Positions 2,129 to 50,655 of a stretch of DNA of 64,000 nucleotides are shown here, piece after piece. The notes beneath the pieces were generated by a model, which worked only from the letters and a program-made list of their open reading frames with translations, was not told where the DNA came from and made no database searches. Origin of the DNA: Hymenobacter sp. 5317J-9 (GTDB taxonomy: Bacteria > Bacteroidota > Bacteroidia > Cytophagales > Hymenobacteraceae); NCBI RefSeq assembly GCF_022921075.1, contig NZ_CP095050.1, forward strand, positions 930,001 through 994,000. Reading direction: 5' to 3'. Each line of letters opens with the position of its first letter. The first letter of the stretch is position 1. The position numbers and the translations under genes are program-made.

Positions 2129-2183
2129 GGCGCATCCGGAGTGGGCGCGACTACCGGCGCAGAAATCCCGAGTAAAACGGAAC

Positions 2184-2282
2184 GTCATGCTGAGCGCAGT
2201 CGAAGCATCTCGCTTGTGGCAGTAATCCTATCAACCGGATTTACTCTTGCACGCGAGATGCTTCGACTGCGCTCAGCATGAC
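2184..2282. repeat. REPIN-like paired palindrome, copy 1
   Basis: Outer arms GTCATGCTGAGCGCAGTC and the matching GACTGCGCTCAGCATGAC flank a spacer of about 40 bp. The copy lies between two convergent genes. Arm type is GCTGAGCGCAGTC. Confidence 0.9.
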
Positions 2283-2312
2283 CGCCTTTTATTAGCTGTT
2301 CCGCCGCCCCGC

Positions 2313-2776: not shown

Positions 2777-2874
2777 AAGACCGTCATGCAGAGCGCAGCG
2801 AAGCATCTCGCGTACAATAGTAAATGATTACTGCCACATGCGAGATGCTTCGCTGCGCTCTGCATGACGGTCTT
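2777..2874. repeat. REPIN-like paired palindrome, copy 2
   Basis: The arms AAGACCGTCATGCAGAGC and the matching GCTCTGCATGACGGTCTT extend the shared core by several paired bases. The copy lies between two genes transcribed leftward. Arm type is GCAGAGCGCAGCG. Confidence 0.9.
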
Positions 2875-10419: not shown

Positions 10420-10449
10420 GGGTGGGTGAGTTAAGAGTTAGGAGTGGCC

Positions 10450-10548
10450 GTCATGCAGAGCGCAGCGAAGCATCTTTACTGCACAACGCAGTCTAATTAT
10501 CGGGATTAGTGGTGGCGGTAAAGATGCTTCGCTGCGCTCTGCATGACG
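10450..10548. repeat. REPIN-like paired palindrome, copy 4
   Basis: GTCATGCAGAGCGCAGCGAA pairs with its complement ending at 10547. It lies between the moeA start and the end of the reductase gene upstream. Confidence 0.9.
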
Positions 10549-10579
10549 TTCTGCGAATAACGCTTTGCCAACGTAGCGC

Positions 10580-20616: not shown

Positions 20617-20725
20617 GAACGTCATGCAGAGCGCAGCGAAGCATCTCGCTCGGAGCAGCAACCCTTTTCCTGCGATTGAGTTACTACCCCGAGCGAGATG
20701 CTTCGCTGCGCTCTGCATGACGTTC
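20617..20725. repeat. REPIN-like paired palindrome, copy 6
   Basis: GAACGTCATGCAGAGCGCAG and its complement, extended by CTCGCTCGG / CCGAGCGAG, flank a 30-bp spacer between the MFS and cupin genes. Confidence 0.9.
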
Positions 20726-35408: not shown

Positions 35409-35425
35409 GGCAGATGACTAAGAAC

Positions 35426-35526
35426 GTCATGCAGAGCGCAGCGAAGCATCTCGCTTGCTCAAACTGATTCAACTGACTGAATAGATTACTTGAGCAAGCG
35501 AGATGCTTCGCTGCGCTCTGCATGAC
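35426..35526. repeat. REPIN-like paired palindrome, copy 9
   Basis: GTCATGCAGAGCGCAGCGAA and its complement, extended by CTCGCTTGCTCAA / TTGAGCAAGCGAG, make the longest inner stem of the set. Confidence 0.9.
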
Positions 35527-35552
35527 ATCTTCCTTTTAACGTCTATTCCGCT

Positions 35553-38134: not shown

Positions 38135-39409
38135 TTATACGGCAGGCGTCGGCTGCTTCTCCAAATCGAACAGCTCGCCCAGCAGCTCTACCAGCTGGCC
38201 GGCGTCGTCGCGCTTGCAGGCGGCTTTGAGTTGCAGCACATGCTGCTTCAGCACCTTTTGCATCAGCGAGCGGGTGGCTTCGTCGAGGAGCTTGCTTTCG
38301 GCGGGGGTGGCTTTCTTCTGGAAACGGTCCAGTTCTTCCTGGCGCAGCTGCTCCAAACTGGCTTTTACGCGCTGAATGATGGGCGACACCATCATTTCCT
38401 TGCTCCACTCACTCAGGCCGGCAATGCTTTCGGCGATGATGGCGCGCACCTGGGGCACGGCGGCCAGGCGCATTTCCAGCGCGGCCGAGGCCTTGCTCTG
38501 GATGGCGTCGATGTTGTAGACCAGCACGCCGGGTACCTGCTCCACGTCGGCGCCGATGCTGCGGGGCACGCTCAGGTCGATGAAGAACTTAAAGCTCAGC
38601 ACGTCGAGGTGCTGCACCAGCTCTTTGGTGAAGAACGGCTCGGCGCGGTTGATGGAGGAAATGATGACGTCGGCCTCTTTCAGCGCGGGCACCAGATTCT
38701 CGAAATCCACTATGTTCATGCCGCATTCCTCGGCCAGTGCTTCGGCCTTGCTGCGGGTGCGGTTGCAGAGAGTAATGGTGCCAAAGGCCTTGCTGGCAGC
38801 CAGGTGGCGGCACACATCGGCGCCGATTTCGCCCAGGCCCACCACCAGCACGTTGGGGTTGGCCACGTCGGCGGTCAGCTCTTCCACCAGTTCCAAAGCG
38901 GCGTAGCTCACGGAGGCGGCGCCGTCGCGGAAGCTGGTTTCGGTTTGCACGCGCTTATTGGTAAAAAACACCGTGTGCAGCAGGCGGTGCAGGAAGGGGC
39001 CGGCGGCGTCGGCATCGGCGGCCCACTGGTAAGCCGTTTTCACCTGGTTGCTGATTTGCAGGTCGCCCACCACTTGCGCGTCGAGGCCCATGGCTACTTC
39101 GAAAAGGTGCTGCACGGCCGCGTCGGCGTCGGTCAGCAGGTCGAAGTAGGGGAGGAACTGGCCGATGTCGGCGCGGTCCTTGAGGTGGCCCAGGGCGAGG
39201 ATGATGTCGCGGCTGCGGTCGTCCTCGGCGGTGTAGTATACCTCGGTGCGGTTGCAGGTGCTCAGCACGAGCAGGTCGCTTAGGCCCAGCTCATTGTGCA
39301 GCGTGTGTAGAAAGCGGCGACAAGCGGCCTCGTCTAAAGAAAGCAGCTCGCGGATGGCCAGCGGCGCTTTCTTGAAGGATAGGCTAACGGCCTTGAACGG
39401 ATGGGACAT
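38135..39409 (-). CDS. hemA: Glutamyl-tRNA reductase
   Basis: HemA makes glutamate-1-semialdehyde from glutamyl-tRNA, the first committed step of tetrapyrrole (heme, and potentially cobalamin) synthesis. The 424-residue protein carries the catalytic-Cys motif LVLSTCNRTEVY near residue 50, FFTNKRVQTETSF, and the NADPH-binding VVGLGEIGADVCRHL near 185, with a C-terminal helical dimerisation domain. ATG 39409 is chosen; GTG 39424 is possible. TAATTTTG on the minus strand at 39444-39437 is a good -7 element 27 bp upstream. The next heme gene is not adjacent. Confidence 0.93.
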   Translation of the reverse strand: MSHPFKAVSLSFKKAPLAIRELLSLDEAACRRFLHTLHNELGLSDLLVLSTCNRTEVYYTAEDDRSRDIILALGHLKDRADIGQFLPYFDLLTDADAAVQHLFEVAMGLDAQVVGDLQISNQVKTAYQWAADADAAGPFLHRLLHTVFFTNKRVQTETSFRDGAASVSYAALELVEELTADVANPNVLVVGLGEIGADVCRHLAASKAFGTITLCNRTRSKAEALAEECGMNIVDFENLVPALKEADVIISSINRAEPFFTKELVQHLDVLSFKFFIDLSVPRSIGADVEQVPGVLVYNIDAIQSKASAALEMRLAAVPQVRAIIAESIAGLSEWSKEMMVSPIIQRVKASLEQLRQEELDRFQKKATPAESKLLDEATRSLMQKVLKQHVLQLKAACKRDDAGQLVELLGELFDLEKQPTPAV

Positions 39410-39436
39410 AGAGTAAATCGACACGAAATCGGACTA

Positions 39437-39660: not shown

Positions 39661-40713
39661 ATGTTCCTGAAAACCCCCTCTGCTGCTGATTCTCCACTCG
39701 GGCCGCGCCCCGCCGGGGTTGCCTCTAGCGCAGGCCCCGCCGGCAGCGACCCCGGTGCCGTGGGCGCCGCCGACGAAACCGCCTCGCTGGAAGCGGCCGA
39801 AGCCATGGCCGTGCCCGCGCCAGCCGTCACCACGCCCGTGGCGTGGGTGCTGCTGCTGGTGCTGGCGTCCATCTGGGGCACGTCGTTTATCCTGATGAAG
39901 AAGGGGCTGGTGGTATTTTCGGCCATGGAGTTGGGCGCCACTCGTGTCACGGTAGCGGCCCTGTTGCTGCTGCCGTTTGCCCTGCGCCACGTGGGTCGCG
40001 TAGAGCGCAGTCGCTTCAAGTGGCTGGCCCTGAGTGGCATGGTGGGCACGTTTATTCCGGCTTTTCTTTTTGCTTATGCCGAAACCAAGCTGGCTTCGGG
40101 GCTGGCGGGCGTGCTCAATGCCCTCACGGTGGTGTTCACCCTGCTGGTGGGCGCCCTGTTGTTTGGGCAGCGGCTCACGGGCCTGCGGGTGCTGGGCATC
40201 ACGCTGGGGCTGGTGGGCACGGTGGTGATGCTGCTGCTGGGCGGCAGCGGCGGCGCCGAAACCCCAACGGGCGAGGGCAATGCGTGGTACGGCATCTACA
40301 TCCTCATTGCCACCATGGGCTATGGCTTGAGCGTCAACGTTATCAAGCACAAGCTGGGCGGCATGACGCCGGTGGCCGTCACCTCGGTGCTGCTGCTGCT
40401 CATTGGCGGGCCGGCCCTGGCGTACCTGCTGCTGGGCACTGGCTTTTTACACAAGTTATCTACCGTGCCGGGGGCCTGGGCTGCCTTTGGCTACATCGCG
40501 CTGCTGGCCACTATGAGCACAGCCGTGGCCATGGTGCTGTTCAACAAGCTCATTCAGCAGTCCACGGCGCTGTTTGCCTCGTCCAGCACCTACCTCATTC
40601 CCATCGTGGCCCTGGCCTGGGGCGCCCTCGACGGCGAGGCGTTCAACCTCTGGCACTTCGCCGGCATGGTGGTTATTCTGGCCGGCGTGCTCATTATCCA
40701 CCGGGCCAACTAG
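39661..40713 (+). CDS. EamA/DMT-family exporter
   Basis: The 350-residue protein has ten hydrophobic segments in two five-helix EamA repeats. Repeat 1 starts VLLLVLASIWGTSFILMKKGL and ends near TGLRVLGITLGLVGTVVMLLLGG; repeat 2 begins with GIYILIATMGYGLSVNVI. Such drug/metabolite transporters export amino acids or metabolites; the substrate is unknown. A 55-residue Ala/Pro-rich N-terminal extension precedes the first helix. The TACCTTTG element just upstream supports ATG 39661. Confidence 0.85.
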   Translation: MFLKTPSAADSPLGPRPAGVASSAGPAGSDPGAVGAADETASLEAAEAMAVPAPAVTTPVAWVLLLVLASIWGTSFILMKKGLVVFSAMELGATRVTVAALLLLPFALRHVGRVERSRFKWLALSGMVGTFIPAFLFAYAETKLASGLAGVLNALTVVFTLLVGALLFGQRLTGLRVLGITLGLVGTVVMLLLGGSGGAETPTGEGNAWYGIYILIATMGYGLSVNVIKHKLGGMTPVAVTSVLLLLIGGPALAYLLLGTGFLHKLSTVPGAWAAFGYIALLATMSTAVAMVLFNKLIQQSTALFASSSTYLIPIVALAWGALDGEAFNLWHFAGMVVILAGVLIIHRAN

Positions 40714-40731: not shown

Positions 40732-40823
40732 ACGTCATGCAGAGCGCAGCGAAGCATCTTTACCTTAATACTAAATCAGATTAGTTGTGCGGTAAAGATG
40801 CTTCGCTGCGCTCTGCATGACGT
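40732..40823. repeat. REPIN-like paired palindrome, copy 10, beside the RAYT gene
   Basis: ACGTCATGCAGAGCGCAGCG and its complement flank a spacer of about 35 bp. It ends 19 bp from the stop codon of the RAYT transposase. Confidence 0.9.
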
Positions 40824-40842
40824 TCTTCTATTTTCCTGCCTT

Positions 40843-41388
40843 TCAGTCATTCACATACGGCCACTCCTGGAACCGCGCGGGCAGGCCGGCCTGCCGGGCG
40901 TTGCCGCGCACGTAGGCCAGCAGGCGGATGAGCTCGGCTTCGTCCTGCACCTCGTATTCGTGCCAGCCCACCTGCCAGAACTCGGCTTCGGGCGGGAGTT
41001 TGGGGCGCACCAGGCGGCGGCAGGCGGTGCCGGTGCGCAGGTGCAGCAGGTCGATGGCTTTGGCGAAGGAGAGCGGGCTGGTGGCGGGCAGGTGCAGCAC
41101 AAGATGAGCGTGATTGGGCAAAATGGCGAAGCCGTGCACCACGAAGCCGGTTTCTTCCAGCATCAGGATTTCACCGGCCAGTACTTCGGCCATTTTCTCG
41201 TGGTCGAAGTAGCGCGGGCCGATGGGGGCGCGGTCAAGCACGGCGTCGAACCGGGCAAAGAACTGCTTTTGGGCCCGGCGGTGCTCGGTGCCGGCTTCGA
41301 GGGACCGGCGGTGTTCGGCCTTGAGCTCGCGGGCGGTGGCGGCCGGCACAGTGCCGTGCAGGCGCAGGGTGAGGAGGCTGGTGGGCAT
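40843..41388 (-). CDS. REP-associated tyrosine transposase (RAYT, Y1/HUH type)
   Basis: The 181-residue protein belongs to the IS200/IS605-like Y1 nuclease superfamily. The HUH metal-binding motif is ILPNHAHLVL with His 93 and His 95. The candidate nucleophile is Tyr 159 in AYVRGNARQAGL, matching the YxxxNPxxAGL block of RAYT proteins. RAYTs cut and join single-stranded REP hairpins and are domesticated rather than flanked by IS ends. The nearest palindrome is 19 bp from its stop codon, and eleven related copies occur elsewhere in the window. No target or trans activity is demonstrated by the sequence. Confidence 0.85.
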   Translation of the reverse strand: MPTSLLTLRLHGTVPAATARELKAEHRRSLEAGTEHRRAQKQFFARFDAVLDRAPIGPRYFDHEKMAEVLAGEILMLEETGFVVHGFAILPNHAHLVLHLPATSPLSFAKAIDLLHLRTGTACRRLVRPKLPPEAEFWQVGWHEYEVQDEAELIRLLAYVRGNARQAGLPARFQEWPYVND

Positions 41389-50520: not shown

Positions 50521-50537
50521 GTAGTCGTTAGAAAGAA

Positions 50538-50637
50538 CGTCATGCAGAGCGCAGCGAAGCATCTTGCTCGCAATAGCTAACTCTTCCGACTGAATTACTT
50601 ACTGCGGGCAAGATGCTTCGCTGCGCTCTGCATGACG
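50538..50637. repeat. REPIN-like paired palindrome, copy 11
   Basis: CGTCATGCAGAGCGCAGCGA and its complement, extended by CTTGCTCGC / GCGGGCAAG (one mismatch), lie between the kinase and dusB. Confidence 0.9.
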
Positions 50638-50655
50638 GGCAGCGAGGACATTCTA

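Follow-up and report, generated by a model that had tools for sequence, protein, structure and literature searches.

In the genome of Hymenobacter sp. 5317J-9, a gene for a RAYT-type HUH/tyrosine nuclease ends beside a palindrome, which raises the question of whether the two form a functional pair, in which the nuclease mobilizes the repeat, or are neighbors by coincidence. We considered this question within the window, the 64,000-nt stretch that surrounds the locus (NZ_CP095050.1, positions 930,001 to 994,000), as well as in the rest of the genome and in related species. An earlier note on this DNA had proposed a dedicated RAYT-REP pair specific to Cytophagales. CGTC-tagged REPs have been described as elements that lack both a dedicated transposase and transposase genes at their flanks (Di Nocera et al. 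2013, PMC3733652). Our literature search found no reports on Hymenobacter REPINs or on the CGTC arm sequence described below. We conclude that the locus probably represents an ordinary orphan RAYT, inherited vertically, next to which a REPIN happens to lie.

CGTC-tagged REPINs in the window and the genome

The palindrome between the EamA and RAYT genes (Table 1) is a REPIN, an inverted pair of CGTC-tagged arms that occurs as a dispersed unit, as its earlier assignment to the REPIN family had it. The inverted repeat GTCATGCAGAGCGCAGCG occupies positions 40734-40751 on the forward strand and 40804-40821 on the reverse strand. In the window, 22 CGTC arm matches were observed, compared with 0.15 expected, and genome-wide the 18-bp arm, with up to 3 mismatches allowed, was found 317 times in forward and 312 times in reverse orientation (the control, the reversed pattern, gave 3 and 1); the genome holds about 315 CGTC REPIN copies. 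A stricter paired pattern detected 250 REPINs in this genome and none in the control. By this pattern, each of the 37 Hymenobacter genomes analyzed holds between 15 and 366 REPINs, whereas 22 genomes from other genera of the same order are nearly devoid of them. The arms differ from classical REPs, as had been noticed before, being CGTC-tagged, unlike GTAG REPs, and they fall into several co-occurring types, termed alpha (GCAGAGCGNAGCG), beta (GCTGAGCGNAGYC), gamma (TCCTGAGC...GGACC) and delta (GCTGAGCTTG).

Table 1. Genes and CGTC REPINs of the window discussed in the text
Feature	Position	Strand	Remarks
CGTC REPIN, beta type GCTGAGCGCAGTC	2182..2284		
CGTC REPIN, alpha type	2781..2870		
CGTC REPIN, alpha type	10448..10549		
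CGTC REPIN, alpha type	20619..20723		
CGTC REPIN, alpha type	35424..35528		matching site REPIN-free in four relatives compared
hemA-like gene (glutamyl-tRNA reductase)	38135..39424	-	phylogenetic marker
EamA-family transporter gene (P0003)	39661..40713	+	identified from sequence; convergent with RAYT gene
CGTC-tagged REPIN, alpha type, inverted arms CGTCATGCAGAGCGCAGCGAAGCATCT...	~40733..40822		between EamA and RAYT gene
A-type RAYT-type HUH/Y1 protein (P0001), 181 aa	40843..41388	-	His93, His95, Trp138, Tyr159
CGTC REPIN, alpha type	50537..50638		

REPIN sites are occupied in some Hymenobacter relatives and vacant in others. Alpha arms are 6.8 times denser in the window than on average, which counts against a purely coincidental neighborhood. 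We rejected local hopping, that is, a higher alpha density near the RAYT gene, as a general effect: the nine other RAYT-bearing genomes taken together showed 39 arms vs about 27 expected, and the density at the corresponding site of one RAYT-less genome was 2.6-fold. Elsewhere on the contig (G000:C1), alpha-type REPINs are nearly missing from about 1.5-2.9 Mb, with 1 arm in the 300 kb sampled, in comparison with 0-0.47 Mb and the window, while the beta and gamma types are evenly distributed.

A single-copy RAYT-type protein with an altered tyrosine motif

The identification of the gene product, here called A-type RAYT, as a RAYT-type protein holds by profile, residues and fold. NF047646 (NCBIfam, REP-associated tyrosine transposase) matches residues 61-178 with E 3.5e-14, at a score of 52.9 bits that lies below the curated cut-off of 80, and the Pfam Y1_Tnp match is sub-threshold (15.6 bits vs a cut-off of 23). 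The AF2 model (pLDDT 87.2, pTM 0.85) has the Y1 transposase fold, and the best PDB match is 4er8, the complex of E. coli TnpA_REP with a REP hairpin (E 2.4e-6). In an alignment of the window's protein with 40 relatives covering three RAYT types, T7, H93, H95, W138 and Y159 are invariant columns, and the two histidines and the tyrosine stand where they had previously been placed. Judging from fold and residues, A-type RAYT would act on single-stranded DNA at a hairpin, cleaving and rejoining the strand via Tyr159.

A-type RAYT shares with TnpA_REP/RAYT proteins the HUH motif, the single catalytic tyrosine, the Trp-Gln motif, the fold, the single copy and the lack of IS ends, but departs from them (4er8; NF047646) in its sub-cut-off score, in a helical insert of about 40 residues ahead of the HUH strands, which is common to the B-type RAYTs of the genus and absent from the C-types, and in its altered NP motif. 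Around the tyrosine, the sequence reads YVRGNA in the window's protein and Y..HP or Y..QP in orthologues, and the class 2 signature Y---NP is absent from A-type RAYT, whereas the B- and C-type paralogues retain NP. A-type RAYT is thus RAYT-like by every residue and fold test except this motif. Compared by published motif features, it resembles TnpA_Y1 subclasses 2.4 and 2.6 (Quentin et al. 2018, PMC6006769), which correspond to Bertels groups 4 and 5, in its NHxH and WQ motifs, in its length (about 180-195 aa) and in its occurrence in Bacteroidetes, where they are abundant or mostly found; unlike them, it has no REP-like elements in REPtron position, and its His-to-Tyr distance is about 65 residues vs published medians of 88 and 82 for subclasses 2.4 and 2.6, respectively.

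The gene is single-copy in its 5.4-Mb genome, with the nearest paralogue there 29% identical, and no IS200/IS605-type ends were seen at it, nor conserved ends across its orthologues, which bears out the previous description of a single gene without IS ends. The several near-identical copies and the subterminal hairpin ends expected of an IS200/IS605 insertion sequence are thus lacking. Orthologues (E below 1e-40) are present in 24 of the 37 Hymenobacter genomes of the first set and in 35 of 61 in a larger sample, and were not found in the 22 searched genomes of other genera of the same order. Of the RAYT loci read, all except 4 have EamA next to the gene; this synteny, kept in nearly all readable orthologue loci, indicates that A-type RAYT is vertically inherited and non-mobile. 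The dN/dS of 0.14-0.27 among close orthologues implies a maintained protein. Loss also occurs, as shown by a 26-aa relic in G025 (G025:C125:12102-12200; 69% identical, with an in-frame stop), which lies on the same contig as HemA and EamA while sister species retain the gene. Four Hymenobacter genomes (G005, G015, G023 and G032) have no RAYT-family match at all.

The adjacency of the RAYT gene and the REPIN

The end of the REPIN and the RAYT stop codon are separated by about 19-20 bp, in agreement with the 19 bp given before. We compared the flanks of RAYT genes across the genus, scoring the same repeat on both sides when at least 14 bp were common to both 400-bp flanks. Such repeats flank B-type RAYTs at 9/10 loci and C-type RAYTs at 11/13 loci, compared with 0/31 A-type loci, and they are likewise missing from the control genes EamA (0/25) and HemA (0/28). 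The B-type proteins, about 30% identical to A-type, are flanked by canonical GTAG REPs such as GTAGCGCGAACTTTGTAGTTCGCG, with matched copies on both sides of the gene, unlike A-type RAYT. The CGTC elements have the same REPIN architecture as the GTAG REP/REPtron systems, and A-type RAYT belongs to the same superfamily as the B-type proteins, but its gene has no flanking REPtron.

One-sided proximity gave a similar picture. CGTC arms were located no more than 200 bp away from 9/31 A-type RAYT genes and 8/28 EamA genes, vs 1/28 HemA genes; the corresponding counts are 0/10 for B-type and 0/13 for C-type RAYTs. The EamA and HemA controls thus rule against the adjacency as evidence of RAYT-REPIN pairing; such an adjacency is no more than expected by chance in a genome this rich in REPINs. 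The neighboring REPIN is also not conserved in sister species. G071 has no REPIN at the site matching 40733-40822, and in G060, which has the HemA most similar to that of the window (98% identical), a gamma-type REPIN occupies it; the vacant site and the differing REPIN imply that the juxtaposition is recent and ordinary. The dedicated pair proposed in the earlier note therefore finds no support at this locus, and, as the association for which RAYTs are named fails here, the A-type protein is an orphan RAYT-type protein rather than a REP-associated one.

Could the adjacent REPIN and RAYT be the remnant of an ancestral REPtron, with flanks lost or replaced in most species? In several A-type orthologues, a palindrome of the CGTC, GTAG or another type does immediately adjoin the gene at its 3' end. 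Against such a remnant, the repeat families change from one species to another and never match across the two sides of the gene, and the neighboring EamA intergenic regions are equally often occupied, so that we consider this origin very improbable.

Two REPtrons are present elsewhere in the same genome, one around a B-type RAYT (L004, G000:C1:1895609-1896124) with flanking REPs GTACCACCAAGCTGTGCTTGGT and one around a C-type RAYT (L047, G000:C1:5167534-5167998) with flanking REPINs GATGGCGCGGGGCTGTGCCCCGTGCCG, the latter with spacers of about 105 bp and no GTAG tag. In G003, two C-type RAYT matches of identical score and length (G003:C1:54358 and G003:C1:4855760) possibly reflect a recent duplication of a whole REPtron. 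Hymenobacter intergenic regions are also rich in other long palindrome families (GTAGAGACGCATATTTGCGTCTC, GTAGGGGCGGGGCTTGTCCCCGCCC and near-simple palindromes of the AATGAGGAATGAGGAATG type), for example, in the EamA-RAYT intergenic regions L006, L007, L009, L022, L026 and L110.

RAYT presence and REPIN load across Hymenobacter

A RAYT could still act in trans. Under this alternative, A-type RAYT would be the trans-acting mobilizer of the Hymenobacter CGTC REPINs, recognizing, in single-stranded DNA of the lagging strand, the CGTC foot together with the GNA hairpin, and copying REPINs to further sites with no need of copies next to its own gene. One fact keeps trans action alive, namely, the phylogenetically corrected correlation between the RAYT and REPIN load. 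The raw median was 112.5 REPINs in genomes with A-type RAYT vs 47 in those without it (p=0.0002). In a phylogenetic regression on a tree built from HemA and EamA, which is limited to a single marker pair with patchy EamA coverage, total CGTC REPINs were 2.4-fold higher with A-type RAYT (p=0.0009, n=36). When B-type, C-type and genome size were added to the model, the A-type effect persisted (p=0.016), but the B-type effect was similar (p=0.018), so that the effect on REPIN load is not unique to A-type RAYT. The combined count of alpha and delta arms was likewise higher with A-type RAYT after phylogenetic correction (p=0.0005, n=57), and here B-type was not predictive once A-type was included (p=0.32).

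The alpha arm type in particular tracks the RAYT clade, as trans mobilization would predict: alpha arms are associated with clade I RAYTs (PGLS p=0.0125, n=57) and reach their highest numbers in the species clade bearing the RAYTs closest to the window's A-type. Our first PGLS, on 30 genomes chosen partly for high alpha counts, found no association; this biased set was replaced with the n=57 and n=36 sets, which comprise all genomes with a usable marker. The correspondence between RAYT groups and arm types that the earlier note suggested looking for across Hymenobacter is therefore borne out for alpha and clade I, but not for delta arms, which are ubiquitous.

Loss of the gene gave mixed evidence. 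In the subclade in which the RAYT was lost or degraded, most members have fewer copies, as expected of a mobilizer: alpha counts are 21 in G025, 76 in G064, 3 in G066 and 7 in G068, vs 54-188 in sisters of the subclade, where counts are mostly higher. The conservation of the catalytic residues and the purifying selection on the gene also fit. However, genomes without A-type RAYT keep 51-76 alpha copies (68 in G010, 76 in G064 and 51 in G023) with undiminished exactness, the fraction of exact alpha arms being 0.61 without A-type RAYT and 0.60 with it; this equality gives no support to REPIN decay after RAYT loss. Sister pairs disagree as well, with 39 alpha arms in G021, which has the RAYT, vs 34 in G033, which lacks it, and 1 each in G065 and G073, both with the RAYT. 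Palindrome-rich genomes without a RAYT, which had been named beforehand as counter-evidence to the pairing, do exist, as exemplified by G023, which is 100% complete, lacks any RAYT-family match and holds 73 REPINs. Given that exact copies persist where all RAYTs are missing, the multiplier of CGTC REPINs need not be A-type RAYT. Together with the missing REPtron and the phyletic spread of the arms described below, these observations make a trans-acting role for A-type RAYT possible but doubtful in our assessment.

The persistence of REPINs in the four genomes without a RAYT-family match might also point to another enzyme, for example, a B-type RAYT or a non-RAYT nuclease, that moves CGTC REPINs while A-type RAYT has an unrelated host role. 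The cross-phylum loci described below are in line with such a reading, but the B-type RAYTs are themselves flanked on either side by GTAG REPs of their own, B-type presence has no predictive value for alpha plus delta counts alongside A-type, and no other candidate gene was identified, leaving this the least credible of the alternatives that we weighed, with scarcely any probability.

The CGTC arm hairpin and its occurrence beyond Hymenobacter

The CGTC arm consensus, CGTCATNCN-GA-GC-GNA-GC-GA-N'GN'ATCT, is foldable on one strand. It consists of a CGTC foot, ATNCN, a tandem G-A step, a GC-GNA-GC mini-hairpin and a complementary return strand, giving a stem of 5 bp, a G-A/A-G step and 2 bp, with a GNA loop and a TCT tail. 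In the unpaired foot (CGTC or TGTC) of 132 paired arms, the first position is C at 0.72 and T at 0.23, followed by GTC at 1.00, with GTC fixed by, or next to, the search pattern. The covariation test was limited to two free stem pairs, the other positions being fixed by the search pattern. These pairs are Watson-Crick in 60/61 and 57/61 arms (shuffle means 30 and 40, maxima 43 and 49), in a set of 61 arms from 54 non-Hymenobacter loci that contains only 19 distinct arms, so that the counts are not independent; in the Hymenobacter alpha type, one of the two pairs is an A-A mismatch. Single-arm folding energies of CGTC arms are no better than those of shuffles, in contrast to the strong perfect hairpin of the B-type GTAG REP (-9.4 kcal/mol, z -5.35). 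GCGNAGC forms an unusually stable DNA mini-hairpin. Because the nearest-neighbor energy model may not reward G-A and GNA motifs, we relied on the covariation.

Like the CGTC-tagged REPs described previously (PMC3733652), the Hymenobacter elements have a CGTC foot, AT at the stem base and inverted head-to-head dimers, with arms that recur across several phyla. The described REPs have a stem of 8-9 bp, a loop of 4-5 nt and a CCA tail, features that the Hymenobacter arms do not share; instead, these have the tandem G-A step in the stem, the 3-nt GNA loop and a tail of TCT.

Exact matches to the 23 fixed letters of the consensus were found in a dozen or more phyla, including Omnitrophota, Acidobacteria, Planctomycetes, Cyanobacteria, Chloroflexi, Armatimonadetes, Clostridia and others, as well as Alpha-, Gamma- and Deltaproteobacteria; isolates with an exact arm include Legionella massiliensis, Silvibacterium bohemicum, Vineibacter terrae and Reyranella soli. 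With an estimated chance expectation of about 0.01 such matches in 257 Gb, CGTC arms are not Cytophagales-specific, contrary to the scope given to them earlier. No RAYT was present in any of 80 loci (8-kb pieces) around the cross-phylum arms. This breadth weighs against trans mobilization by A-type RAYT, given the absence of the latter from the 22 searched genomes of the same order.

Across the 54 non-Hymenobacter loci, the GNA-loop CGTC hairpin with the tandem G-A step is nearly unchanged. At L204, L218, L247 and L263, some CGTC arms are arranged head to tail, and the copy lying upstream breaks off just before its return stem (for example, GTCATCCCGAGCGTAGC|CCGTCATCCC), as though a switch in copying had taken place at the hairpin.

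Discussion

The explanation that we favor, an orphan RAYT beside a coincidental REPIN, treats the two elements separately. A-type RAYT is a single-copy orphan HUH/Tyr nuclease, retained beside EamA in Hymenobacter and kept by purifying selection, that would cleave and rejoin hairpin single-stranded DNA through Tyr159. The REPIN at 40733-40822 is one of the approximately 315 CGTC REPINs that insert in intergenic regions, and would have arrived at this site by chance; each of its arms, when single-stranded, would fold into a hairpin, and the arms have the inverted arrangement usual for REPINs. The neighborhood does not reveal which enzyme multiplies CGTC REPINs. A RAYT beside a CGTC REPIN resembles a missing link, but the cross-species comparison shows that proximity is the wrong evidence: real REPtrons are conspicuous in the same genomes, and the A-type RAYT gene is not among them. 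Taken alone, the locus is an apparent exception to the rule that CGTC repeats lack flanking transposase genes (PMC3733652); across species, it is not.

There is perhaps a little more than one chance in four that A-type RAYT is the first identified mobilizer of CGTC REPINs, acting purely in trans and without a REPtron, with the GNA-loop CGTC hairpin as its substrate class. If true, this would answer a question dating from 2013, namely, which enzyme moves CGTC REPs. The same repeat is found in close Hymenobacter relatives that have A-type RAYT and in others that lack it, and such species provide a clean system for tests of trans action by a RAYT. The hairpin of the arms, which differs little between Hymenobacter, Legionella and Acidobacteria, is a marker of a widespread repeat.
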